From the NCBI GenBank assembly GCA_020832805.1, contig JAFIED010000198.1, forward strand, positions 1 through 35,172: a stretch of 35,172 nt of DNA, given 5' to 3'. Of the stretch, positions 9,863 to 22,644 are shown piece after piece. A model generated the notes under the pieces. The model made no database searches and was not told the DNA's origin. It saw nothing but the letters and a program-made list of their open reading frames with translations. Made by a program: the position numbers and the translations under genes. How positions within the stretch are numbered: the stretch's first letter is position 1; every line of letters starts with the position of its first letter. The DNA comes from Pararhodobacter sp. (GTDB lineage Bacteria; Pseudomonadota; Alphaproteobacteria; Rhodobacterales; Rhodobacteraceae).

Positions 9863-9940
9863 GCAGCGCAACAAAATTGCCCGTGAAGTGGCATCTGCGC
9901 TCGTTTATTGCGGGGCGGCCGGCAGCGCAAGGCAGCGCAA
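9863..9940 (+). repeat. three copies of GCAGCGCAA upstream of the SH3 gene
   Basis: GGCAGCGCAA occurs twice in perfect tandem (9921-9930, 9931-9940), and GCAGCGCAA occurs again at 9863-9871. All lie in the 181-base divergent space between a minus-strand dehydrogenase and a plus-strand SH3 gene. They could be operator repeats or simple tandem duplication. No convincing -35/-10 pair was found here. Confidence 0.5.
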
Positions 9941-9960
9941 CGGCATCAGGAGCAGGAACG

Positions 9961-10551
9961 ATGACAGGACGGAAGGTCAGCAGCAGCCTGGCAGGCGCGG
10001 TACGGTTGGGTTCCGGGTGTCTGGGTGCGGCGGCGCTGGCTCTGGTGCTATTGGCAACGGGTGCCGCACGGTCGGGGGGCGCCGCACAGGCGCAAACCAT
10101 GGCCGCAACAGCTGCCACGATACAGCGCGGGCCGGAAACCGGCCTGCCGCTGCCCCGCTATGTTTCGCTGAAAAGCGGCGAGGGGCGCGCCCGTCGTGGG
10201 CCGAATCGCTCGCATAGGGTGGATTGGGTGTTTACCCGGCGTGACATGCCGCTGCGCGTGACAGCCGAGTTCGAGCATTGGCGCCTTATCGAGGATCAGG
10301 AGGGCCAGGGAGGCTGGATGCACCACTCGCTGCTTTCCGGCGTTCGAACCGCGCTGGTGCTCAACGACATGACCGTGATGCGCCGGCAGCCCACCCCCGA
10401 GTCCACAGAGGTGGCGTTGCTGGAGCGCGGCGTTGTTGCCCGCATTCTGGGCTGCGAGGGGGACTGGTGCCGCCTGCGCGTGGACAACTGGCGCGGCTGG
10501 GTGCCCCGGCAGGCCATATGGGGTGTCGATCCGGGGGAAGAGCTGAACTGA
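9961..10551 (+). CDS. exported protein with two bacterial SH3-like domains
   Basis: The 196-residue protein has a signal sequence (basic start, hydrophobic stretch about 20-36, likely cut after AQA near 45). Two SH3-like units follow at about 67-128 and 129-190, of the SH3_4/DUF1058 kind, with the repeated W-R-L...GWVP pattern (GDWCRLRVDNWRGWVPR). Such domains usually bind peptidoglycan or act as targeting modules in the periplasm. ATG 9961 is chosen because CAGGAGCAGGAA precedes it and the signal peptide starts there; the frame is open from 9877. The specific role is unknown. Confidence 0.8.
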   Translation: MTGRKVSSSLAGAVRLGSGCLGAAALALVLLATGAARSGGAAQAQTMAATAATIQRGPETGLPLPRYVSLKSGEGRARRGPNRSHRVDWVFTRRDMPLRVTAEFEHWRLIEDQEGQGGWMHHSLLSGVRTALVLNDMTVMRRQPTPESTEVALLERGVVARILGCEGDWCRLRVDNWRGWVPRQAIWGVDPGEELN

Positions 10552-10665: not shown

Positions 10666-11430
10666 TCACATATAACCATTGACCAGGGCCGCCGACACCA
10701 GCGCCCAGCCGTCTGCCACCACGAAGAAGGCCAGTTTGAAGGGCAGCGACACGATCGCCGGTGGCACCATCATCATGCCCATCGACATCAGGATCGCCGC
10801 TACAACCAGATCGATGATCAGAAACGGCAGGAAGATCAGGAAGCCGATTTCGAACGCGCGGCTGAGTTCCGACAGCAGAAAGGCAGGCACCAGCACCGAC
10901 AGCGGCGCCTCTGGCCCAGAGACCACCGGGTCGGGGCGCAGCGTGGCAAGGCTGGCAAAGGTGTGGGTGTCGACCCGCGCCGCCATGAACAGGCGAAAGG
11001 GCTCCATCGCGCGCATGAAGGCTTCCTCCAGCCCGACAGTGCCGGCATTCAGGGGCTCGATACCCGCCTCCCAGGCGGCCACGAAAACCGGTTCCATGAT
11101 GAACCAGGTCAGGAAAAGCGCCAGCGTGGTCAGCAGCATGCCTGGGGGCGATTGCTGCAACCCGATGGCCTGACGCAGAATGGCCAGCACCGTCACCAGA
11201 AACGGAAAGCAGGTGATCATGATCGCCAGGCCAGGCACCAGACTGAGAAGGGTCATCAGCGCGATCAGTTGCACCGATCGCACGGCCAGACTGCCTTCGC
11301 TGCCAAAATCCAGCGTCAGGGACTGCGCATCGGCGGCTTGCGTCAGCGCCAGAACGATACAGCAGGCCAGCGACAGGGTGCCAACCCCGGCCAGCCACCG
11401 CAACCGCGCGGGCCGGGCCGCAGCGCGCAT
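10666..11430 (-). CDS. fliP: flagellar export gate protein FliP
   Basis: Core subunit of the flagellar type III export gate in the inner membrane. From ATG 11430 the product is 254 residues, close to the usual size of about 245. An N-terminal cleavable signal (hydrophobic LAGVGTLSLACCIVLAL, then ADAQ) is typical of FliP. Family signatures are present: PFLVTVLAILRQAIGLQQSPP and PAFLLSELSRAFEIGFLIFLPF. Four membrane helices are visible. The frame stays open upstream to ATG 11670, which overlaps the fliN stop, but those 80 residues are Arg/Ala/Pro-rich and not family-like. The chosen ATG lacks a good Shine-Dalgarno, so the start is less certain than the gene. Confidence 0.93.
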   Translation of the reverse strand: MRAAARPARLRWLAGVGTLSLACCIVLALTQAADAQSLTLDFGSEGSLAVRSVQLIALMTLLSLVPGLAIMITCFPFLVTVLAILRQAIGLQQSPPGMLLTTLALFLTWFIMEPVFVAAWEAGIEPLNAGTVGLEEAFMRAMEPFRLFMAARVDTHTFASLATLRPDPVVSGPEAPLSVLVPAFLLSELSRAFEIGFLIFLPFLIIDLVVAAILMSMGMMMVPPAIVSLPFKLAFFVVADGWALVSAALVNGYM

Positions 11431-11659
11431 GCGTGCGGCCGGCAAGATTCCCGCCGGCACGCTAGCGGCTGGCCAATTCCCGGCTGGCCAAGACCTGGCT
11501 GACAAGGCAAGCCTTGCAGCCTTGCGCAGGCTCTGTCCAGAAATCCCGCCGCCAGCGGCGCATGGCGCGCGGTTGATGACATGTCGCTGCGGTGCCACAC
11601 CACACAGGCAGGCAAGGCTTTTGCCGCGTCCGGCCACCCCGGGGCTGTTCTGTCGCACG
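11431..11659. other. fliN-fliP intergenic region with short repeats
   Basis: These 229 bases contrast with the overlapping genes upstream in the same operon. They contain a direct repeat CGGCTGGCCAA (11466-11476 and 11481-11491), a palindrome CAAGGC-AA-GCCTTG (11503-11516), and two GCCGGC boxes near 11440-11455 that could pair. They may be a structured leader for fliP, or encode an N-terminal extension of FliP starting at 11670. Confidence 0.4.
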
Positions 11660-12001
11660 CTACAGCCCATCGCTCAGGTCAACGACCTCGGTCAGGCGCA
11701 CGGCCATCTGGCCGGCCTGTTCGCCATCCAGTTCTTCCAGCGTGCCGCGGGCAATCATCCGGTCGCCGACATACAACTCTACCGGTTCATCCACGCGCCG
11801 GTCCAACGTCAGCACGCTGTCGCGCGACAGCCGCAAAAGTTCGCGCACGGTGGGCCTGGCCCGGCCCACCGAAATCACGATCTCTATGGGCACCTGCGAC
11901 AGCACACTGCGCCCGCCGCCCGGATCGGCGGCAACACCACCGCCAAGGGACTGGCTGGCCACTTGGCCGGCATCGACTTCTGCATTACCCGCTTGCGACA
12001 T
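11660..12001 (-). CDS. fliN: flagellar motor switch protein FliN
   Basis: C-ring subunit of the flagellar switch that also docks the export apparatus through FliH. The product is 113 residues, with a disordered Gly-rich start (about 1-30) and one SpoA domain (about 34-108) containing VPIEIVISVGRARPTVREL and the VELYVGDRMIARGTLEELD segment. It is slightly shorter than enterobacterial FliN. Its start overlaps the end of fliH by 17 bases, so the two are co-translated. Confidence 0.93.
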   Translation of the reverse strand: MSQAGNAEVDAGQVASQSLGGGVAADPGGGRSVLSQVPIEIVISVGRARPTVRELLRLSRDSVLTLDRRVDEPVELYVGDRMIARGTLEELDGEQAGQMAVRLTEVVDLSDGL

Positions 12002-12596
12002 CGCGCGGCTCCTTTTCTGACTGGCTGTACTGATAAAAGGCCGTCACGGCATCGGCGCAGCGCGCTGCGGCCTGGGACAGGTCGATCACCACATCCTGCG
12101 GCCCGGCAGCAAACTCGGCGCTGCCCGGCGGCAGATCGGCCGTTTCGACCAGTTCCAGCGGCGGCAGCACATGCCCCTTGAACCCGGCCTCGAACAGTGC
12201 CGCCGCCCCGGATGGCACCCGCAGCACCACCGGGGCATCAGCGGCCCGCCCGGCAAAGGGCAGCAGTTCCTCGATGACGCGTGGCACCAGGGCTGTCTGC
12301 GCGGCGACCGGCAACACCTGTTGCGCCATTGCCCGCAACACGGGTTCCAGCGCGCGCAGCACATGGTCCCGGGCCTCGTGATAGCCAAAGCACAACTGTT
12401 CGGCAAAACCGGCCAGCGCGGCCGCACGCGCCCGGTCATCGGTCTCGGCCTGGCGCATGGCGTCTTCCCAGCCCGCCAGATACCCGCGCTCATAGGCATT
12501 GAGGCGCAGATCCTCCAGATCTTCGGGCATCATCAGGCTGGGCGCATCGGGCTCGTCGGGCTGCTCGAAAACCTCCAGTCGCAGGGGCGCGGGCAT
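11985..12596 (-). CDS. fliH: FliH-like flagellar export ATPase regulator
   Basis: The 203-residue protein sits between fliF and fliN, the usual place for FliH, which links the export ATPase FliI to the C-ring. It has an acidic N-terminus, the Gly/aromatic segment AYERGYLAGWEDA (about 34-46) followed by an Ala-rich helix, and a C-terminal domain with VVLRVPSG and DVVIDLSQ. FliH is poorly conserved, so this is partly positional. It starts in a TGATG overlap with fliF and ends inside fliN. No fliI occurs in the window. Confidence 0.75.
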   Translation of the reverse strand: MPAPLRLEVFEQPDEPDAPSLMMPEDLEDLRLNAYERGYLAGWEDAMRQAETDDRARAAALAGFAEQLCFGYHEARDHVLRALEPVLRAMAQQVLPVAAQTALVPRVIEELLPFAGRAADAPVVLRVPSGAAALFEAGFKGHVLPPLELVETADLPPGSAEFAAGPQDVVIDLSQAAARCADAVTAFYQYSQSEKEPRDVASG

Positions 12597-14245
12597 CAGC
12601 GGCCTCCTTCCTGATCTTCCATCCAGCTGCGCAGAATCTCGACCGTCTCGTCCTGGCGGTCAGCGATCAGCCGGCGCATGCGCGCCACGGGATCTTCCGG
12701 CGGCGCCCCCGGGCCCACCGACCGCATCTGGCCAGGATCGGCCGCGTCGATCTCGCCCGTCAGGACCGGCCCATCGGCGCGGGCGGCTTGGCCGGCGGGC
12801 ACCGGCAGCCCGGCGCCGGGGCCGGCAGCGCCGGGCAGTGCCAATGCGCTGTCTGCCGGGCGGCCTGCGCGCAGGATCGGGCGAATCACGAACAGCGCGA
12901 GGATCAGCAGCACAAGGGCCAGCGCGGCCAGGCGGATCAGTCCCATCAGGTCCAGCCCCAGACGATCGATCATCGAGGGCTGGTACCCCCCGTCCATGAC
13001 CGCGGCCGGCTCGAACGGCAACGAGCGCAGGGTGATCACATCGCCGCGCGCCGGGTCATAGCCCACGGCCGATGCCACAAGTTCGCGCAGCGCTTCCAGT
13101 TCGGCCTCTGGCCGCGGCGCCCACTGGATGACCCCCTCGGCATCAGGGGCGCGCACCCCGTCCAGCATCACCGCCACCGTCAGGCGCCTGATCGACCCCG
13201 GGCCGCGCTGCACCTCGCGCGTGGTCTGGCTGACATCCCATGTCCGCCTCTCGCGCGACTGACGCTCGCGCGAATCGCTGCGGCCATCGCGCGCGGCGGC
13301 ATCGCCATCGGGCAGGTTCGACGCCACGGTCACCCCGCCCGCCCGCGTGTCCGAGGCCGTGGCATCACGCTCCTCGCTTTCCTCACTCAGTGCCACGCGT
13401 GAGTCAGGATCGATCAGCCGTTCGACCAGCGTTTCGCGGTCGTTCAACGTATCGACATGCACCTCGACCACCGCGCGGCCGCGGCCCACATGCGCCTCCA
13501 GCAGACGCTCGACATTGCGGCGCAATTCGGCGGCCCGCTCGCCGCCATGCTGCCTGCCGTGCTCGTCATCGCCCATCACCGCGCCGGTTGCCGAATCGAT
13601 CACCGCCACCCCCTCGGGTGTCAGCCCGGCCACAGCCGACGCCACCAGATAGCGCAACGCCTGCGCCTGCGCCGGGGTCAGCGCACCCGATACCGGTGTC
13701 ACCGTGACAGAGGCCGATACCTGCTGGTCACGGCGGAAGGGCTGCGCCGCGCCATGCGAGATATGCACCCGCGCCGCGCGCAGATGCGGGCTGGACATGA
13801 TGGTGCGCGCCAGTTCCCCTTCCTTTGCGCGCCAGTAGGCGGCGTCGAACATCTGCGAGGTGGTGCCGAAACCACTGAGCCCGTCCAGCAGTTCGTACCC
13901 GCCCGCGGCATTGGCCGGCAGGCCCTGCGCGGCCAGTGCCATGCGTGTCTCGTCGCGCAGGCGGGCATCGATCCAGATCGATTCGCCCCGCACTTCATAG
14001 CGGATACCGCGCTGGTCCAGCGCGGCAATCACATCGCCCGCGCGCGCACCGTCCAGCCCGGCGTACAGCAACGTCATCGATGGCGAAGCGGCGATGCGGG
14101 CGATCACCAGCACCGTGGCCAGCGCCATGACCAGACCCAGGCCAAGGCCAACACGGCGGCGCATGTCCAGCGCGGTCCAAAAAGCCAGAAACTGCTGCAA
14201 GGCGGCTCTCCTGTCAGACGGGCCTTCTGCCCCGTCACCGCCCAT
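12596..14245 (-). CDS. fliF: flagellar MS-ring protein FliF
   Basis: Forms the inner-membrane MS ring on which the C-ring and export gate assemble. The 549-residue product has membrane helix 1 at about 31-52, the ring-building motifs of the YscJ/FliF fold (LLYAGLDGARAGDV, GSYELLD-like GGYELLDGLSGFGTT), a long periplasmic domain, membrane helix 2 at about 436-455, and a C-terminal FliG-binding helix (TVEILRSWMEDQEGG). The length matches FliF of this group. It is the first gene of the minus-strand run fliF-fliH-fliN-fliP and is divergent from fliL. Confidence 0.95.
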   Translation of the reverse strand: MGGDGAEGPSDRRAALQQFLAFWTALDMRRRVGLGLGLVMALATVLVIARIAASPSMTLLYAGLDGARAGDVIAALDQRGIRYEVRGESIWIDARLRDETRMALAAQGLPANAAGGYELLDGLSGFGTTSQMFDAAYWRAKEGELARTIMSSPHLRAARVHISHGAAQPFRRDQQVSASVTVTPVSGALTPAQAQALRYLVASAVAGLTPEGVAVIDSATGAVMGDDEHGRQHGGERAAELRRNVERLLEAHVGRGRAVVEVHVDTLNDRETLVERLIDPDSRVALSEESEERDATASDTRAGGVTVASNLPDGDAAARDGRSDSRERQSRERRTWDVSQTTREVQRGPGSIRRLTVAVMLDGVRAPDAEGVIQWAPRPEAELEALRELVASAVGYDPARGDVITLRSLPFEPAAVMDGGYQPSMIDRLGLDLMGLIRLAALALVLLILALFVIRPILRAGRPADSALALPGAAGPGAGLPVPAGQAARADGPVLTGEIDAADPGQMRSVGPGAPPEDPVARMRRLIADRQDETVEILRSWMEDQEGGR

Positions 14246-14261
14246 CCTTGGCCGATACCGC

Positions 14262-14276
14262 TTAACAATCGGTTAG
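14262..14276. promoter_or_regulatory. near-consensus CtrA site between fliF and fliL
   Basis: TTAA (14262-14265), seven bases, then TTAG (14273-14276) matches the alphaproteobacterial CtrA box TTAA-N7-TTAA with one mismatch. The reverse strand reads CTAACC, close to the TTAACC half-site. It lies in the 91-base divergent flagellar promoter region. CtrA controls flagellar genes in Caulobacter and Rhodobacterales, so the setting fits. Binding is inferred. Confidence 0.5.
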
Positions 14277-14336: not shown

Positions 14337-14813
14337 ATGACCGATGCCACAGACGCGGCAGAAGCGCCGGCAAAGACGCGCAACAAGGCCTTGCCGCTGG
14401 GCCTGGCTGCGGCGCTGGTGCTGGGCGGCGGTGGGTTCTATGCCACCTACAGCGGCCTGATCGGCGCGCCGGCGGCAAGCCCGCCGCCAGCGCAGGGCCA
14501 TACCGCAGAGGCCCGGTTCGCCTATCTGCCGCTCGATCCGATCATCGTGAACATCGGCCTGCGCGATCAGGCGCGCCTGTTGCGGTTCAGTGCCGAGCTG
14601 GAGGTGGCGCCCGATCATCTGGCCGAGGTGTCACGCCTGCGCCCGCGCATCCTGGACGTGCTGAATACCTATCTGCGCGCACTCGAGATGCACGAGCTGG
14701 AGGAACCGGCCGCCATGATTCGGCTGCGCTCGCAGATGCTGCGCCGGGTGCAGATCGTCACTGGGGCGGGGCGGGTAAACGATCTTCTGGTCATCGAATT
14801 CGTCTTCAACTGA
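14337..14813 (+). CDS. fliL: flagellar basal body-associated protein FliL
   Basis: Single-pass inner-membrane protein that forms a ring around the stator and supports torque or stator recruitment. The 158-residue product has a cytoplasmic start, a membrane helix at about 18-38, a Pro/Ala linker, and the periplasmic FliL domain (FAYLPLDPIIVNIG through LLVIEFVFN). AAGGAAG precedes the ATG. It begins the plus-strand run towards motA, divergent from fliF. Confidence 0.92.
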   Translation: MTDATDAAEAPAKTRNKALPLGLAAALVLGGGGFYATYSGLIGAPAASPPPAQGHTAEARFAYLPLDPIIVNIGLRDQARLLRFSAELEVAPDHLAEVSRLRPRILDVLNTYLRALEMHELEEPAAMIRLRSQMLRRVQIVTGAGRVNDLLVIEFVFN

Positions 14814-14822
14814 GGTCACGCA

Positions 14823-15356
14823 ATGGCATTCCTTTCGGATTTCATGATGGCATCTGCCGCCTTTGGCGCGGCGATCTACTGTTTCGTCCTGGCGCGGCGG
14901 CTGAAGGCCCTGACCCGGCTTGACGGCGGCATGGGCGGCGCGATTGCGCTGTTGTCGGCGCAGGTCGATGACCTGACACGCGCACTGGCCCAGGCACGTG
15001 CGGCAGCGGGCGCCCAGAATGATTCGCTGCCCCAGCTTGTCGAACGGGCCGAGGCGGCAGGCCGGCGGCTGGAACTGCTGATGGCGACGATGCACGACCT
15101 GCCTGACGGCACACGCGCCCGATACCCCGACAGGCAAGGTGATCCGGGGCCGGGAAATGATGCGGCGCCGGCCGGGGCGTCGGGGGGGGCGCCATCGCCC
15201 CGCCATGCCTCTGCTTCAAGTCGCCACGGCGATGCCCACGGCATCGATGATCAGGTCCACACCGGCGCAGAAAACACCAGGCGCGGCAGTGGCGCCATCC
15301 ATTCTGCGCCCAGAGCCCGGATCGTGCGGCGGCGCCAGCCAACAGAGGCCGTATGA
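14823..15356 (+). CDS. single-pass membrane protein of the fliL-motA operon (PflI-like by position)
   Basis: The 177-residue protein has an N-terminal membrane helix (about 6-25), a helical, probably coiled-coil region with Q/A/L heptads (about 33-95), and a Gly/Pro/Ser/Arg-rich tail (about 96-177). In Caulobacter the flagellar positioning protein PflI is a bitopic membrane protein encoded with fliL, and this gene has similar placement and architecture. I cannot confirm homology from motifs. A conserved core at the N-terminus with a fast-evolving tail seems likely. The start lies 9 bases after the fliL stop, and the stop shares ATGA with the next gene, which supports the full length despite the low-complexity tail. 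Confidence 0.65.
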   Translation: MAFLSDFMMASAAFGAAIYCFVLARRLKALTRLDGGMGGAIALLSAQVDDLTRALAQARAAAGAQNDSLPQLVERAEAAGRRLELLMATMHDLPDGTRARYPDRQGDPGPGNDAAPAGASGGAPSPRHASASSRHGDAHGIDDQVHTGAENTRRGSGAIHSAPRARIVRRRQPTEAV

Positions 15357-16201
15357 TGCGCCGCCCGCCCCATACAACGGCTGGCAATCCGCCGCCTGCA
15401 CACCAGCAACAGCCTGCACAGCGGCAACAGCCGGCACGACCCGCGCAGCGCAGGCCCGATGCGCAGCCCACCCTCGCCCCGGATCGATCGGGCAACGGCC
15501 GCTCCCTCGGCCGCGCCATCGTCGCGCGGCTGGGGGCGCTGCCGACCCGGGCGCGCGCCCTGCCCGCGCTGGTGCTGCTTTTCGCCTTGGCAGGGGCAAT
15601 GCGCCTCTCGCTGGGTATCGATGGCGCCCTGGCACAGGCCCTGGCGCCAGAGGGCGCGGCCCCGGTGACAGCCATTGCCGCGGCCACGCCTGCCCGGACC
15701 GACACGCCCCCGGATGCGGCGGCGCCGGAGGCGCCCGGCGATGCGGCGGGCGGTGAAGCCGCGCAGGACCCCGCGGCACTGGCTGCCATGCTGATCGACC
15801 TGCGCAACCGCGAGGCCGCGCTTGCAGCGCAAGCCACCCAGCTCGCCGAGCGTCAGGCCCTGCTTGCCGGCGCCGAGGCCCGGATTGCGCAGCAGATCGC
15901 CGCATTGAGTGAAGCCGAAGCGATGCTTGACGCCACCATGACCCGTGCCGACCGGATTGCAGCCGAGGATCTGGGCCAGCTGGTCGCCGTGTTCGAGGCC
16001 ATGCGCCCGGAACAGGCCGCCCAGGTCTTTGCCGAGATGGAACCCGGGTTTGCCGCCGGTTTCCTGGGGCAACTGCGCCCGGCCACCGCCGCCGGTATTC
16101 TGGCCGGGCTGGAACCCGCGCAGGCCTATGCGTTGAGCGCGACGCTGGCCGGGCGCAACGCTGTTGTCCCGCGCCGCACCGCGGCCCCCGAGGCACAGTG
16201 A
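15353..16201 (+). CDS. MotE-like protein with MgtE N-terminal-type domain
   Basis: The 282-residue protein has a Gln/Pro/Arg-rich start, a hydrophobic helix at about 68-86 (membrane anchor or uncleaved signal), an Ala/Pro linker, a coiled coil at about 140-200, and an MgtE_N-like helical domain at about 205-265 (FEAMRPEQAAQVFAEMEP, LGQLRPATAAGILAGLEP). This is the layout of rhizobial MotE, a chaperone that stabilises the periplasmic motility protein MotC. Its neighbours are motA and a large exported protein, which suggests a comparable pairing. The start overlaps the previous stop (ATGA) with AGAGG upstream; ATG 15356 is an equally possible start. Confidence 0.75.
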   Translation: MMRRPPHTTAGNPPPAHQQQPAQRQQPARPAQRRPDAQPTLAPDRSGNGRSLGRAIVARLGALPTRARALPALVLLFALAGAMRLSLGIDGALAQALAPEGAAPVTAIAAATPARTDTPPDAAAPEAPGDAAGGEAAQDPAALAAMLIDLRNREAALAAQATQLAERQALLAGAEARIAQQIAALSEAEAMLDATMTRADRIAAEDLGQLVAVFEAMRPEQAAQVFAEMEPGFAAGFLGQLRPATAAGILAGLEPAQAYALSATLAGRNAVVPRRTAAPEAQ

Positions 16202-16260
16202 AGCTTTCTTAAGGCAGTCGATACAGCCTGAACACAAGGCAGGGAATCGGAGAGCGTTGC

Positions 16261-17130
16261 ATGATTGGCATCATCGGTATCGTCGTGGTCTTCGTCATGG
16301 TTTTCGGCGGCTATACCATGTCAGGCGGCAAGTTCGGCATCATCCTGTATGCCCTGCCCTTCGAGATCACGATGATCGGCGGGGCGGCACTGGGCGGGTT
16401 TCTGATTGCCAACTCCGGTGCTGGCGCCAAGCAGACCCTGGTCGATCTGGGCAAGGTGTTTCGCGGGGCACACTGGAAACAGGCCGATTACAGTGATCTG
16501 CTTTGCCTGCTGTTCGAACTTATCCGCCTGGCGCGTCAGAACCCCGTGGCGCTGGAAGAACATATCGAAACACCCGAAACATCCGACATCTTCGGCCGCT
16601 ATCCACGGATTCTGAAAGATCACGAAGCGGTCGAGATGATCTGCGACACGCTGCGCGCCGTCACCATGAGCTATGATGACCCGCATCAGGTCGAAGAGGT
16701 GCTCGACAAGCGGCTTGAAACCAACCTGCACCACGCGCTTCATTCCAGTCACGCCATGCAGACAGTGGCAGACGGCTTGCCGGCGCTGGGGATCGTCGCG
16801 GCGGTGCTGGGGGTGATCAAGACCATGGCCTCGATCGCCGAACCCCCCGAGGTCCTGGGCGGCATGATCGGCGGCGCCCTTGTCGGAACCTTCCTTGGTG
16901 TGTTCCTGTCATACGGTTTCGTGGGGCCTTTTGCCAATCGCATGCGCTCGGTGATCGAGGAGGACGCCCATTTCTACAAGCTGATCCGCGAGGTGCTGAT
17001 CGCCAATCTGTACAACCATCCCGCCAGCATCTGCATCGAGGTGGGGCGCCAGAACACACCCCATCAGTTGCGCCCGGGCTACAGCGACCTGGAGGAAGCG
17101 ATGCGCGCGCTCAAACGCGAGGCTGCATGA
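16261..17130 (+). CDS. motA: flagellar stator protein MotA
   Basis: Proton-channel stator subunit that drives rotor turning through cytoplasmic charged residues. The 289-residue product has four membrane helices (about 1-20, 28-50, 173-192, 200-222). Arg89/Arg92 and Glu99/Glu100 are candidates for the rotor-contacting charges. The two conserved prolines are Pro174 (GLPALGIVAAVLGV) and Pro223 (VGPFANRM). GGAGAG precedes the ATG. Its partner motB is not in this window and must lie elsewhere. The stop overlaps the next gene in ATGA. Confidence 0.96.
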   Translation: MIGIIGIVVVFVMVFGGYTMSGGKFGIILYALPFEITMIGGAALGGFLIANSGAGAKQTLVDLGKVFRGAHWKQADYSDLLCLLFELIRLARQNPVALEEHIETPETSDIFGRYPRILKDHEAVEMICDTLRAVTMSYDDPHQVEEVLDKRLETNLHHALHSSHAMQTVADGLPALGIVAAVLGVIKTMASIAEPPEVLGGMIGGALVGTFLGVFLSYGFVGPFANRMRSVIEEDAHFYKLIREVLIANLYNHPASICIEVGRQNTPHQLRPGYSDLEEAMRALKREAA

Positions 17131-20111
17131 TGCCGGACAGCGCCCGCATCCCGCGCGGCAATGCGGCACACAGGGCCTTGACGCGCCGGCGGCAGGGCAC
17201 TGCCCGCCGGTCCGGACTTCACCGCAAAATTCTGACATTGCTGGCGTTTTTCGTCATGCTCCTGTGCGCTCTGCCCCCCGGCGCACAGGCACAGCAGACA
17301 GCGCCGTCAATCATGGTGACCGCGGGCGAGCATCGGGGTTTCACCCGAATCGTGCTGCAATCGACACGGGCATTCACCTGGTCGGTCCGGCAAGAGGATC
17401 AGCAGGTTCAGGTACGGATAGGCCCGCCAACCGCCCAGCTGGACCTGCGCCGCGCCTTTGACCGGATCACGCGGCAAAGGCTGGCCGGCATCGAACAGAC
17501 ACCAGACGGCCTTTTGCTGACCCTTGGCTGCGATTGCCCGATACGCTCTTTCGAGGAACGCGCAGGCGTCGTGGTTTTCGATATCATGGCACCAGAGGCG
17601 GCGCGCACCGACCCCGACCTGCAAGCCCGGGGCCCCGCAACGGTGCCAGACGGCGCCGCCATGTCGGATGCGGCACCCGGGGCTCCGGCGCCCGCGCGCC
17701 CTGGCGCGGCCCTGGATCCCGATGCGCTGACGCGGCGGGCCGGGCAGGCGCTGGCCGAAACCCTGCGCCACGGCGACAGAACGATCGGCGTTGCGGGCGC
17801 CGAGTCGGCGCCCCTCACGGTGCCATCCTCCGGCATGCGGTTGCTGCCTCTGGCGCAGCCGCCCGGCACCGCCCCGCAGGGCACCGTCGATCCGGCAACC
17901 GATCCAGCGCCCGTTGCCGTGGTCGGCACCGAAGCCGACACTGACACCGACAGAATGGGCAGCGCCGTCGCCCTGCGCCTGGCCGAGGCTGTGGCGCAGG
18001 GGTTGCTGGCCGGCATCGACGACGCGCCGCAGGGGGCGCGGCTGATGCCGGGCGCGGCGCTGGACCCGGCTGCGCAACAGGCCCGTCAGTTGCGCATCCT
18101 GAACCCCCTGCAGCCCGGCGTTGCCCAGGTCGATGCCCCGCCCGTGCCCGATGCCTGCGCGCAGACCGGCGCGCTGGCCTTTCTGGCGCAACCCGAAATC
18201 GCCCCCTTCGCCGAGACCCAAGGTCAGCTGATGCAAACCCTGCATGGCGAATTCGACCGACCGGATGAAGGGGCATTGTTGAACCTGATCCATCTTTACC
18301 TGCAGCATGGGTTTGGTGCCGAGGCCCGGCAACTGATCGATACCGCCCGCGCACCCGTCGCCGGGCATGACCTGCTGCGCGGGCTGGCCGACCTGCTGGA
18401 AGGGCGGCAATCGAACTCGCGCATGCTGTTGTCGTCACTGGCAGATTGTGACGGCCCTGCGGGCCTCGTCGCCGCACTCGCCGGCGCACCGCAGAGCAGC
18501 ATCAGCGCCGCAGCAGACGCCATCGCGCTCAGCTATGGCACCTTGCCTGACCCGCTGAAGCGGATCGTCGCGCAGGATCTGGTGGCGCTGATGGTCGATG
18601 CCGGCGCCTTGGATCAGGCGCGCGTCGTATTGCATCAGATGGAGGCTGCCGGGCCATCCGGCGTGTCACCGCCTGCCTTGCCAGAGGCTCTGCTGAACCA
18701 CGCCCGCGGCGCCCATGAACAGGCCGTCAGGGCACTTGAGCATCGAACCGGCGCCGATGATGCCGCCGCCTTGAGCCTGCGATTGCGTTTGCTGCGCGAT
18801 ACCGGAGCAGCGGCCGAGCCCGCGCTGATCGAACAGGCGCAGACCCTGGCGGGCATGCTGCGCCAGTCAGACGACGGCATCGCCCTGCTGCGCGACGTGA
18901 TCCACCTTCAGGCTGCTGCCGGCGCGTTCGAGCCCGGCTTTGCCAGCCTGGAGCGGCTGCGCGGCTGGCTGGGCCAGACCCCGCATGACCGCCAGATCGA
19001 TCTGACCCTGACAGACAGGCTATGGCAGCAGGTGGCTGATGACGCCGATGACCAGACATTGCTGGCGCTGTTCCTGACCCGCGACGACGGGCGGCGCGCC
19101 GATCTGTCAGCGGCCACGCGCACCGCGCTGGCCGCCCGGCTGCTGCGCCTGGGGCTGGCACAGGCGGCGATCGGCCTTGTCAGCCCGCCGACCGAACCGG
19201 CGCAGACCCTGATACTCGTCGAGGCGCTGATCGCCGCCGGCCGGGCCGAACGCGCGCTGGCGCTGCTGGCGCCGCTGCTGGCGCCGCCCGACGACCTGAG
19301 CGGCACCGATGTTGCCGCCCCCCAGAACCGGATGGCCCAGACCCTGTTGGCGCGTGCCCTGCGCGATCGGGGCGCCACCGACAGCGCGATTGCCGCCTTT
19401 GTCGCCGTCGGTGCCAGCCACGAAGCCGCGCAACTGGCCATGGCAACGGGCGACTGGCGCCAATTGGAAACCCTGCTGGCACAGCCGCCCGCGGCGCAAC
19501 AGCCCTCGCCCGCAGAGCCTGCGCGCCCGGTACCGGGTTCGCCTGCCGCGGGCACGGCGGGCGCCGTGCCCCGCACCGAAACCGCATCTACCCCCAATGT
19601 GACCGGCACAATACCGGCAGAAACGGGCACCATCGACTCACAGGCGGAACTGCTGGCCTTGACGCGCCTGTTGCTTGCAGCACCCGGCGACGCCGAGGGC
19701 GCCCGCCCTGCCCCGCCGCCCGCCTCTCCTGCCGGGCCGCCGCCGCTTGTCGATACCGCCTTGGCCGCACCCCTGGCGGCCGCACATGATTCGCCCGCAC
19801 CCGTGGAAGCCGCAGCTGATCCGCCCACCCCCGCGCGCCCCGAGCGCGATCTCCCCGCAGGCGCCGCCCCGGCGCTGGCCCTACCGGCGCTTGATCCCCC
19901 GATGTCTGGCTCGTCCGCGTCCGACGCCTTTGCGGCAGAGCGCCTTGCAACCGGGACCCTTGCGCCCGATACCATCGACACCGGAACAAGCCCCGCCGCC
20001 GAAGGGCCAGACAGCCCAGAGGCCGCACTGATGCGCCGCAATGCCACGCTTCTGGGGCAAAGCGCGGCGTTGCGCACGCTGATCGAGGACTTGCTGGCAG
20101 AGGGGCAATGA
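17127..20111 (+). CDS. large exported alpha-solenoid protein coupled to motA
   Basis: The 994-residue protein is not recognised with certainty. It has a signal sequence (basic residues, hydrophobic 36-50, likely cut at AQA near 56), an AMIN-like beta domain at about 60-155 (VTAGEHRGFTRIVLQ, VVVFDIMAPEA), a Pro/Ala linker, a long TPR-like helical solenoid at about 342-790, a Pro/Ala/Thr-rich stretch (790-950), and a short C-terminal helix (RRNATLLGQSAALRTLIEDLL). It starts in an ATGA overlap with motA and lies downstream of the MotE-like gene. Rhizobial MotE is the chaperone of periplasmic MotC, a stator partner, so this protein may be a functional MotC counterpart. That link is inferred from architecture and position only. 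Confidence 0.8.
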   Translation: MMPDSARIPRGNAAHRALTRRRQGTARRSGLHRKILTLLAFFVMLLCALPPGAQAQQTAPSIMVTAGEHRGFTRIVLQSTRAFTWSVRQEDQQVQVRIGPPTAQLDLRRAFDRITRQRLAGIEQTPDGLLLTLGCDCPIRSFEERAGVVVFDIMAPEAARTDPDLQARGPATVPDGAAMSDAAPGAPAPARPGAALDPDALTRRAGQALAETLRHGDRTIGVAGAESAPLTVPSSGMRLLPLAQPPGTAPQGTVDPATDPAPVAVVGTEADTDTDRMGSAVALRLAEAVAQGLLAGIDDAPQGARLMPGAALDPAAQQARQLRILNPLQPGVAQVDAPPVPDACAQTGALAFLAQPEIAPFAETQGQLMQTLHGEFDRPDEGALLNLIHLYLQHGFGAEARQLIDTARAPVAGHDLLRGLADLLEGRQSNSRMLLSSLADCDGPAGLVAALAGAPQSSISAAADAIALSYGTLPDPLKRIVAQDLVALMVDAGALDQARVVLHQMEAAGPSGVSPPALPEALLNHARGAHEQAVRALEHRTGADDAAALSLRLRLLRDTGAAAEPALIEQAQTLAGMLRQSDDGIALLRDVIHLQAAAGAFEPGFASLERLRGWLGQTPHDRQIDLTLTDRLWQQVADDADDQTLLALFLTRDDGRRADLSAATRTALAARLLRLGLAQAAIGLVSPPTEPAQTLILVEALIAAGRAERALALLAPLLAPPDDLSGTDVAAPQNRMAQTLLARALRDRGATDSAIAAFVAVGASHEAAQLAMATGDWRQLETLLAQPPAAQQPSPAEPARPVPGSPAAGTAGAVPRTETASTPNVTGTIPAETGTIDSQAELLALTRLLLAAPGDAEGARPAPPPASPAGPPPLVDTALAAPLAAAHDSPAPVEAAADPPTPARPERDLPAGAAPALALPALDPPMSGSSASDAFAAERLATGTLAPDTIDTGTSPAAEGPDSPEAALMRRNATLLGQSAALRTLIEDLLAEGQ

Positions 20112-20350: not shown

Positions 20351-20640
20351 CGGCAAACCGCTGGCTGCCTGGCTCGCAAGGCGCCGCGCCATCCAGGCCG
20401 CTGAACCCGCAACACCGGTTCCTTGCGCCAACAACCGTGCATTGCCGGTCTCGTGAACGCCGGCTGCTTGCATGATCGACGGGCAGGCAGCACGTTGTTG
20501 GCCTGCGCGTGATCGGGATTCGTGCCCGGCCTTGCGCGCAGGACCACATGCACCCTTGCCCCTCTGTGACAGGTGCCGGGGTACCAGACAGGTCTTGCGC
20601 ATCAGCCAGCCTGGTCGATGCCACGAACAGGAGAGCGCGG
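20351..20640. other. about 290 bases without a convincing gene
   Basis: Only short frames with Cys/Arg/Pro-rich translations occur on either strand, and none has a family motif or good start. No tRNA-like fold was recognised. The last bases hold the AGGAGAG ribosome site of the next gene (20628-20634). Confidence 0.6.
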
Positions 20641-22644
20641 ATGCAACGTCTTTATCCAGTCATGCACCGGTTGAATCCCATGTCGCCACAGCCATCCTTG
20701 CCCCCCTGCGCTGATTCCCGCGCTTGCCGCGGGCTTGCGCGCCGGTCACGGGGCAACAGGGCGCTGATGCTTGCCGCATTTGTCGGCGTCGTCTGTTTCG
20801 CGCCACTGACCGGCAACCCGCTGCGGGCCGACACCCCGCCACAGGTTCAGGCAGTCACCCTGTCCACCGCCGGCCTGGCCATGATCGAGGCCAGCGCCGA
20901 GGTCGGCCCGCACCCCGTCAACCTGTCGATCCCCAGGCGCGATATCGATGATTTCCTGAAAAGCCTCTGGCTGGTAGACCCCAATCGCGCCACCGCGCGC
21001 CTTGTCCTGCAGGGGCCGGCCCAGCTGGATGATCTGTTCGCCAGCCTGCCTGTCACGCCCGAAGATGTGATCGACCGCACACGGCTGCTGGCCGCGCTGC
21101 CCGGTGTGCCGGTCACCGTTGCCCGGGCCGCCGGGGAATGGCAGGGCATCAACATGGGGGTCAGCCAGGGGCAGTGCGAAGGCACTCCTTGCAGCGTGCT
21201 GAACCTGATGGATGATGCCGGCAGCCTGCGCCAGTTCACGCTGAGCGATCAACTTGACATCCGGTTCACCGCCTCGGCGGATACCGACATGCTGCGCAGC
21301 GCGCTGGCCGCCCTGCGCGCCGCAGACGACACGCAGGTCAGCGCAAGCCTGCACACCGATGACGCCTCGGCACGCAGCATTGACCTGATCTGGCTGCAGG
21401 AGGCGCCGGTCTGGCGCACGGCCTGGCGCGCGCTGGCAGGGCCGGAAGGCGTGCGCCTGACCGGCTGGGCGATCGTAGAGAACGCCACCGGCACCGACTG
21501 GCAGGACGTGCGCCTGACGCTGGCCACCGGCAGCGTTCGCGCCATTCGTGCACCGCTTTATGACCGCCTGCACGCCCAGCGCATGCTGTCGGCACCAGCG
21601 GTCGAGCCGGCCTATGCCGGGATCGCGCAATTCCAGAGCCGGCAGGGCGATGCAATGCTGGACATGGCCGAGGCTGCCGCACCTGCAGCCATCGACGCCG
21701 ATGACGGTGACAGTTTCAGCCGGTTCACGCTGACCGAGCCGGTGTCGCTGCCCACCGGGCAAATGCTGATGCTGCCCTTTCTGGACGAGACCCTGCCGCA
21801 GGCGCGCCTGACACTTTTCCGGGGCGGCGCGGGCAACAGCCATCCCCAGATTGCGCTGGAGATCGAAAACCCCTTGCCGCTGCGGCTGCCTGCCGGCGTG
21901 CTGACGCTGTACGAGGACGGGCGCGGCCATGCCGGCGATGCCATTATCCCGGAACTGGCGCCGGGCGCACGGCAGATCGTGCCTTTTGCCAACGACACGG
22001 CCATGACCCTGCGCGAGGACGTGACGACAGGCGAACAGATCCGCGAAATGCGCCTGGTCGCGGGCGTGCTGCAGGTCAACGAGGATGTCGAGCGCCGCAC
22101 CACCTATCGCATCGAGGGGGCGCCCCGGGCCGACCGGGTGCTGACCCTGACCCATCCCCGGCGCGATGGCTGGACAGTGATCGCGCCACAGGGCGGGACA
22201 GAAGAACTGGACGGCTGGCGCTGGCAGATCGACGTGGGCGCCGGCGCGCGGATCAGCCATGTGGTCGTCGAGCGTCAACCCCGGATGCGGCGGATCGCGG
22301 TCATGGATATCGACCTGCCGACGCTGGCGGCATGGCAGGGACATGCGGCAGATCCTGAACTGCAGGCACGGCTGGCCGAGATCGGCAGCTTGCGCGGTCA
22401 GGTAGCGGCGGCGCAGCGCGCGATCTCTCGGCTCCAGGAAGAGGTTGCCGCGCTGACGGGCGAACAGGACAGGCTGGTCAACCTGATCGTGCAACTGGGC
22501 GAGGCCAGCGCGGCGACCCCGGAACGCCGCACCAGAGTCGACGGGATCGACGCCGAGATCACCCGGACACAAGCCGACATCCGGGCGCAACAGGCGCAGG
22601 CCGATGCCGCGCGCGCGCGAATCGAGGCCTTGCTGGGCGATTGA
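20641..22644 (+). CDS. exported DUF4139-type protein (mucoidy inhibitor-like)
   Basis: The 667-residue protein of unknown function resembles the DUF4139 family. A long basic N-region (1-40) leads to a hydrophobic signal (41-57, cut near LRA at 63). The start of the mature part (QAVTLSTAGLAMIEASAEV) and the DIDDFLKSLWLVDP segment are characteristic of bacterial members. The central DUF4139 beta region contains TGWAIVENATGTDWQDVRLTLATG, and a C-terminal coiled coil spans about 575-667. ATG 20641 is chosen over upstream codons because AGGAGAG lies 6 bases before it. Two cysteines in GQCEGTPCSV could form a disulfide. The function is unknown, probably periplasmic. Confidence 0.8.
   Translation: MQRLYPVMHRLNPMSPQPSLPPCADSRACRGLARRSRGNRALMLAAFVGVVCFAPLTGNPLRADTPPQVQAVTLSTAGLAMIEASAEVGPHPVNLSIPRRDIDDFLKSLWLVDPNRATARLVLQGPAQLDDLFASLPVTPEDVIDRTRLLAALPGVPVTVARAAGEWQGINMGVSQGQCEGTPCSVLNLMDDAGSLRQFTLSDQLDIRFTASADTDMLRSALAALRAADDTQVSASLHTDDASARSIDLIWLQEAPVWRTAWRALAGPEGVRLTGWAIVENATGTDWQDVRLTLATGSVRAIRAPLYDRLHAQRMLSAPAVEPAYAGIAQFQSRQGDAMLDMAEAAAPAAIDADDGDSFSRFTLTEPVSLPTGQMLMLPFLDETLPQARLTLFRGGAGNSHPQIALEIENPLPLRLPAGVLTLYEDGRGHAGDAIIPELAPGARQIVPFANDTAMTLREDVTTGEQIREMRLVAGVLQVNEDVERRTTYRIEGAPRADRVLTLTHPRRDGWTVIAPQGGTEELDGWRWQIDVGAGARISHVVVERQPRMRRIAVMDIDLPTLAAWQGHAADPELQARLAEIGSLRGQVAAAQRAISRLQEEVAALTGEQDRLVNLIVQLGEASAATPERRTRVDGIDAEITRTQADIRAQQAQADAARARIEALLGD

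Follow-up and report, generated by a model that had tools for sequence, protein, structure and literature searches.

Organisation of the locus

We analysed a stretch of 35,172 nucleotides from Pararhodobacter sp. (GenBank assembly GCA_020832805.1, contig JAFIED010000198.1), here called the window, in which five genes, fliL, pflI, motE, motA and motK, follow one another head to tail on the plus strand (14337-20111). The last of them encodes a protein of 994 residues that very probably is MotK, as an outsized member of a published family, and we are highly confident that the unit as a whole corresponds to the fliL-pflI-motE-motA-motK operon known from Cereibacter sphaeroides. The source assembly is incomplete (3.75 Mb, 300 contigs, 89.9% complete), the window being a single contig, and the nearest named relatives in a genome scan were Rhodobacteraceae bins, Rhodobacter sp. 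NTK016B and Pararhodobacter species. The main features are as follows (aa, amino acids; TPR, tetratricopeptide repeat; pLDDT, predicted local distance difference test):

14337-14813, plus strand: fliL, 158 aa; Pfam FliL, 50.8 bits (cut-off 24.6)
14823-15356, plus strand: pflI, DUF6468 protein, 177 aa; Pfam DUF6468, E 6.1e-5, 23.5 bits, below the cut-off of 26.9; position as that of C. sphaeroides pflI
15353-16201, plus strand: motE, 282 aa; Pfam MgtE_N, 30.1 bits (cut-off 25.9)
16261-17130, plus strand: motA, stator subunit, 289 aa; TIGR03818, 350.4 bits (cut-off 303.8)
17127-20111, plus strand: very probable motK, 994 aa, putative exported stator scaffold protein with an AMIN-like domain and a TPR-like solenoid; assigned by motA overlap, profile and structure
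17307-17588, plus strand: predicted AMIN-like beta domain of MotK, residues 61-154, with C135-x-C137; AlphaFold pLDDT 93.4 for the domain alone
18150-19487, plus strand: predicted helical TPR-like solenoid of MotK, residues 342-787, with C344 and C441; AlphaFold pLDDT mostly above 90
20016-20102, plus strand: predicted conserved C-terminal helix of MotK, residues 964-992, after the mostly disordered residues 790-962; AlphaFold and tail motif

An original prediction, made from the DNA letters alone, had described a MotE-like gene, motA and the gene for the 994-residue protein as contiguous, the last two overlapping by ATGA, and the open reading frames (ORFs) bear this out: pflI and motE share an ATGA at 15353-15356, and motA and motK another at 17127-17130. 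The extent it gave to the unit, 15353-20111, covers genes that are present but was drawn too narrowly, as fliL and pflI belong to the run.

The 994-residue protein very probably belongs with MotK

The large protein had been presented as lacking a recognised family, which holds for Pfam and NCBIfam, where no model matched it at E 1, but a published family exists, that of MotK. The C. sphaeroides operon fliL2-pflI-motE-motA2-motK was reported in 2024; its MotK (RSWS8N_12065, 652 aa) combines an AMIN-like domain of eight strands and a TPR-like region with disordered linkers and a signal sequence (PMC10954123). The window protein is encoded in the same gene order, is likewise coupled to motA and shares the AMIN-like domain, the TPR-like solenoid and the disordered linkers, and it may also be exported; at 994 versus 652 aa it is larger, both the N-terminus and the Pro/Ala-rich tail being longer. 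The same work notes, for several Paracoccaceae, Roseobacteraceae and Caulobacteraceae, a gene between 2,000 and 3,000 bp long at this place (PMC10954123), and therefore even a MotK gene size near 3 kb is already in print.

Our own sequence comparison was made with C. ovatus and C. johrii, not C. sphaeroides. Used alone in tblastn, the window protein found C. ovatus (locus L042, E 9e-28) and C. johrii (L057, E 6e-15), E-values that are relative to the candidate stretches only. A profile built from the window protein and 12 of 19 fetched relatives (13 rows, among which there may be a Cereibacter) gave 356 bits for the 680-aa protein of C. ovatus and 324 bits for the 651-aa protein of C. johrii. 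The scan of named genomes yielded 72 motK loci and, when all MotK sequences were aligned to the profile, the window protein was the longest of 73 (median 745 aa; three are cut by contig ends). A plasmid collection returned one weak, short match only (9% of the query, E 2e-5). We assign the 994-residue protein to MotK because gene order, sequence and domain plan all match those of Cereibacter MotK, and the locus is not a product of chance because relatives across the family have the same neighbour. The finding is real and conserved but largely explained by the published MotK work.

Gene order across the family

In 71 of the 72 named loci motA lies directly 5' of motK, the 72nd motK standing at the start of a contig. 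With the motK start located mechanically as the first start codon (ATG, GTG or TTG), it falls between -3 and +5 bases from the motA stop in all 71 loci, and the overlap at -3 recurs in 51. The DNA examined upstream held no motE at 10 of the 71 loci (two short contigs, seven Salipiger/Alloyangia and C. ovatus); a motE match occurs elsewhere in the genome in all eight of the last two groups. Because motE is separable in Salipiger, Alloyangia and C. ovatus while the motA-motK pair stays, motA-motK is the tightest part of the unit. We also observed that the pair stands apart from fliL-pflI-motE at loci L042, L052, L053, L073, L075, L080, L086 and L089, that all seven Salipiger/Alloyangia genomes hold a second, distant MotE match, and that flgI precedes motA-motK in both Salipiger/Alloyangia loci inspected.

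The same arrangement was seen in the wider set of family genomes. Coordinates of motK were listed for 148 of the 163 genomes that match the profile and, among these listed matches, motA lies just 5' of motK on the same strand in 142 (132 at first, and 10 by a repeat motA search of 12), the gaps for the ten added genomes and the six exceptions being read from coordinates. Five of the six exceptions have motK at a contig end (genomes G081, G109, G159, G203 and G210); G081 gave no MotA match, and motA and motK lie on different contigs in G210. In G216 the two genes sit near opposite ends of one contig and would be about 1.5 kb apart if it were circular. A second motK fragment in G207 was set aside.

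Co-occurrence with flagella

Among 248 family genomes the MotK profile matched 163 and FliF matched 181, with a FliF model that also matched 4 of 14 named control genomes. A motK match was present in 159 of the 181 FliF-positive genomes versus 4 of the 67 FliF-negative ones, 63 genomes having neither and 22 FliF alone. The four FliF-negative matches comprise one weak match (E 4.5e-6), one genome that is 62% complete and two genomes with a strong MotA. Conserved occurrence in non-flagellated species apart from motA, which the original prediction had named as the observation that would speak against it, is thus not what the family shows.

Predicted structure of MotK

By hydropathy only, MotK has one hydrophobic stretch, which begins at residue 35 and is followed by AQA/QQ, and the protein may be exported. 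The AMIN-like domain, TPR-like solenoid and C-terminal helix that had been proposed from the sequence all appear in an AlphaFold model computed with 13 sequences, which contains a beta domain at residues 61-154 (pLDDT near 90), a helical solenoid at 342-787 (mostly above 90) and a terminal helix at 964-992, with residues 159-336 and 790-962 largely disordered. Over the whole model pLDDT is 69.4 and the predicted template modelling score 0.50, and therefore the relative placement of the parts carries no meaning. Pfam TPR_19 was found in 8 of the 13 alignment rows, the window row itself matching no TPR family.

A Foldseek search of the full model against 350,542 PDB chains, in which the query was the predicted model only, with no literature input, placed chain 9hmf_K at rank 1 (E 9.4e-7, 820 alignment columns against a 773-residue chain). 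The tool leaves this chain unnamed, and we take it to be PflA from its length. The entry 9HMF is an alpha-carbon model of the Campylobacter jejuni periplasmic scaffold, and PflA is predicted to consist of an N-terminal beta-sandwich, a linker and 16 TPRs (PMC12222027). The window MotK shares with C. jejuni PflA an N-terminal beta domain, a disordered linker and a long helical solenoid; PflA too is a stator scaffold of the periplasm, for which contact with an E-ring protein has been reported, but it works with PflB and other scaffold proteins. A sequence relationship was not apparent, as no flagellar protein figured among the 13 matches of the MotK profile in the PDB at E up to 1 and no similarity to the PflA sequence was found. 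The fold search thus supports a predicted architecture like that of PflA rather than proven descent. This likeness is not new: a 2026 review states it, placing MotK with the PflA spoke and MotE with E-ring proteins (PMC13023049), and a preprint counts MotK among PflAB homologues (PMC11870540). In a viral structure library two matches were obtained at E up to 0.001, neither of them flagellar by name.

The beta domain was also folded alone, with 66 sequences, namely that of the window protein and those of 65 out of 70 relatives. Foldseek ranked the PilQ B2 domain first (E 0.02), a small heat-shock protein second and AmiC third (E 0.06), and 9leq_A, the PflA N-terminal domain with PflB, came at rank 17; template modelling (TM) scores by query were 0.61 for PilQ, 0.63 for AmiC and 0.46 for 9leq_A. 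In sequence searches Pfam AMIN-like touched 46 and AMIN 12 of the 66 sequences at E up to 10, and PilQ was the best PDB match of the beta-domain profile (E 0.0015). The label 'AMIN-like' is therefore justified for this domain.

Conserved cysteines and the C-terminal helix

C135 and C137 are conserved in 68 of 72 aligned MotK sequences, and C344 and C441 in all 73 of 73, a pattern that may reflect disulfides in MotK. The terminal helix is likewise conserved: of 71 proteins, 53 carry a tail motif within their last 60 residues, whereas shuffled tails gave a mean of 2.24. The pattern was written after viewing the alignment, and two proteins cut at the C-terminus were left out; by eye, many of the 18 proteins without a match, though not every one, have a similar tail. 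A term search of PMC10954123 found that cysteine and disulfide are mentioned there for MotE or other proteins, and that the phrase 'C-terminal helix' is absent. The four conserved MotK cysteines and the conserved, tethered C-terminal helix are what is added here, and they are new in a small way.

MotE as a putative E-ring protein

Judged from its sequence, the window MotE is a homologue of the E-ring proteins FlgY and FlbB. With these and with other MotE proteins it shares an MgtE_N (ARM-like) domain, against which the MotE of C. johrii scores 26.3 bits, and an N-terminal hydrophobic segment; the NCBIfam FlbB model matches it at E 4.8e-5 with 23.2 bits, far below the cut-off of 110. It differs in having no cysteine and a long N-terminal extension. 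This Pro/Gln/Arg-rich extension takes up about 68 residues (15353-15556) before the hydrophobic segment, which begins at residue 69 by hydropathy only; a start beyond residue 40 was also found in 3 of 59 relatives. The protein has 282 aa versus a median of 195 in these 59 relatives, one of which is a 59-aa artefact. The original prediction had treated MotE as a chaperone, a view that is outdated in part, as the 2026 review argues that MotE is a structural part of the E-ring, of the same kind as FlgY and FlbB, and not a chaperone alone (PMC13023049).

Observations on the other side

Several results weigh against a simple identity with the C. sphaeroides system and against a PflA-like spoke on a MotE ring. 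The 9hmf_K match has TM scores of only 0.16/0.19, a root-mean-square deviation of 39.5 and 11% identity, against an entry that is an alpha-carbon trace, and the lower matches are mostly unrelated eukaryotic or designed helical-repeat proteins; homology with PflA is unproven because of these very low scores and the prevalence of unrelated helical repeats. For the beta domain no fold match reached E<0.001, small heat-shock proteins are interleaved with the AMIN matches, and the window's own AMIN-like score (15.5 bits) lies below the cut-off of 27. The window MotE has 0 cysteines in 282 residues, and no cysteine occurs in 24 of 58 relatives, although the stability of MotE in C. sphaeroides and S. 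meliloti is reported to require C20 and C53, respectively (PMC10954123). The cysteine is a trait of these two MotE proteins, which the review does not use to define the family. MotE proteins free of cysteine must dimerise, if at all, without a disulfide. Periplasmic location, contacts among MotE, MotK and MotB, and the need for rotation were shown in C. sphaeroides only and are predicted for the window proteins.

The distribution of motK also has exceptions. Some flagella lack MotK, because 22 FliF-positive genomes gave no profile match. Twelve of these were inspected: in nine (G023, G064, G085, G148, G178, G179, G180, G211 and G218) nothing MotK-like lies behind motA, the criterion being a MotA over the TIGR03818 cut-off and no ORF of at least 120 aa in the fetched stretch better than E 0.5 against the MotK profile; in two (L094 and L095; G021 and G266) the profile had missed an exported protein behind motA that has the C-x-C feature and is by eye a divergent MotK candidate; in the last the contig ends behind motA. 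At least seven of the nine share a common, slightly different MotA beginning, and the nine look like another flagellar type. We conclude that motK accompanies one kind of flagellum in the Rhodobacteraceae and is not universal. Beside this, we noted another MotA type with no recognisable motK behind it at L108, L110-L114 and L116, where a FliJ-like coiled-coil ORF seems by eye to come next in several cases.

A possible spoke and ring, and its alternatives

What is known of MotE and MotK function comes from relatives. In C. sphaeroides, cells lacking MotE or MotK still form flagella, but these are paralysed and the cells cannot swim; both proteins are periplasmic and bind each other and MotB2, and MotK is found at the flagellated pole only with MotA2 and MotB2 (PMC10954123). 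In Phaeobacter inhibens, the protein CP4 (PGA1_c35690), encoded in the same slot behind motA, is needed for motility: transposon mutants are immotile with filament and hook proteins still extracellular, and an operon containing CP4 complements them (PMC12363192). The functions of CP2 to CP4 are called enigmatic there, and the words motE and motK are absent from that paper (PMC12363192). Gene order alone, and not sequence, suggests that CP2, CP3 and CP4 are PflI, MotE and MotK. The word MotK occurred, among the literature matches listed, only in PMC10954123, PMC13023049 and PMC11870540, and a search joining Rhodobacteraceae, flagellar gene cluster, motA and tetratricopeptide gave no match.

We propose that MotE dimers would form an E-ring around the MS-ring and that the MotK solenoid would act as a radial spoke, meeting the E-ring and keeping MotA/MotB stator units in place at the rim of the motor. 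The spoke would be anchored through its N-terminal AMIN-like domain, either to peptidoglycan or to a stator partner; a long flexible tether carries the C-terminal helix, which could be a second docking site. We put the odds of this placement of MotK and MotE at about even. The original idea of a periplasmic stator scaffold is probably right in substance, the scaffold working with MotE. Its further part, that the protein touches peptidoglycan through the AMIN-like domain, is no more than a possibility, because the comparable PflA domain binds a protein, PflB.

This last point leads to the alternative in which MotK is a spoke like PflA, with an N-terminal beta domain that attaches to a partner protein at the stator rim and not to peptidoglycan. 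The N-terminal beta-sandwich and linker of PflA do bind PflB, and their deletion removes PflB from the motor (PMC12222027); the PflA domain is present, at rank 17, in the beta-domain match list, and MotK localisation depends on MotA2/MotB2 (PMC10954123). Since the AMIN domains of PilQ and AmiC fit better by the TM scores above, and the recurrent sequence matches of the beta domain are AMIN families and PilQ, we lean against this alternative while taking it seriously. The original prediction favoured instead a MotC-type stator protein with MotE as its chaperone. MotE is indeed present in the unit, and MotC of S. meliloti is a periplasmic, TPR-rich partner of MotE, described as a greatly diverged homologue of MotK (PMC13023049). 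However, MotC has no AMIN domain (PMC13023049), no MotC homologue accompanies MotE and MotK in C. sphaeroides, and motE of the Rhizobiaceae lies between flgI and flgH, outside the fliL operon (PMC10954123), whereas in the window it lies between pflI and motA. A MotE fused to green fluorescent protein still localises when MotK, MotA2 or MotB2 is missing, which speaks against MotE being a chaperone only (PMC13023049). Inspection by eye of the regions behind motB in eight genomes, for a MotC to compare with, revealed no MotC-like gene. MotC and the window protein are set apart here by description, not by sequence, and we consider the MotC reading, rejected on gene context and domain plan, very unlikely; the partner is MotK.

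TPR and AMIN-like domains are widespread, and a general envelope TPR protein might have come to lie behind motA by chance, as the motK matches in four FliF-negative genomes and the nine genomes with FliF and MotA but no recognisable motK behind motA could suggest. Against this, the four FliF-negative matches are qualified as described above, and motA stands just 5' of motK in 142 of the 148 genomes among the matches listed, five of the other six having motK at a contig end. Synteny and co-occurrence largely refute this explanation, which we find scarcely credible, and they equally rule out an orphan of unknown family.

Going beyond the spoke-and-ring placement, it is tempting to speculate on a compact, two-protein scaffold of the Campylobacter type, in which MotE would supply the ring and MotK alone would serve as spoke, anchor and rim, with an AMIN-fold domain on the wall or stator, a disulfide-locked solenoid bridging the gap and the tethered C-terminal helix as second contact. 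We regard this as improbable. If true, the distance between stators and axis would be set by a tether length that varies among lineages, and a wider ring would go with the 994-residue form. At the least, a gene without a recognised family is tied to a published stator scaffold and the locus to the idea that E-ring and spoke are an old and widespread part of the flagellar motor, and the four cysteines and the C-terminal helix provide concrete residues for tests.

Neighbouring features

A possible regulatory site lies in the 91-base gap between fliL and fliF, the latter being divergent on the minus strand from 14245:

14262-14276, plus strand: CtrA-like site TTAA-N7-TTAG, which departs from TTAA-N7-TTAA at one position; flanked by the divergent genes fliF and fliL

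The CtrA motif is TTAA-N7-TTAA. The site is the sole match in the window at up to one mismatch, and such a motif arises at least once in 21 of 100 shuffles of the window. A CtrA site is stated to lie 5' of fliL2 in C. sphaeroides (PMC10954123).

The opposite strand carries fliP and fliF (10669-14245, minus strand). In the same genome motB lies on a different contig (G000:C292). The proteins encoded after it are presumably flgE-like and flgK-like. After motK comes a gene for a protein with partial DUF4139/MuiA-like similarity (20509-22644, plus strand; E 8.4e-6, below the cut-off); in Phaeobacter, sltF and flhA come after the corresponding operon (PMC12363192). Also near the flagellar genes, at 9877-10548 on the plus strand, is a gene for a protein with bacterial SH3 domains (Pfam SH3_4, E 6.3e-28).

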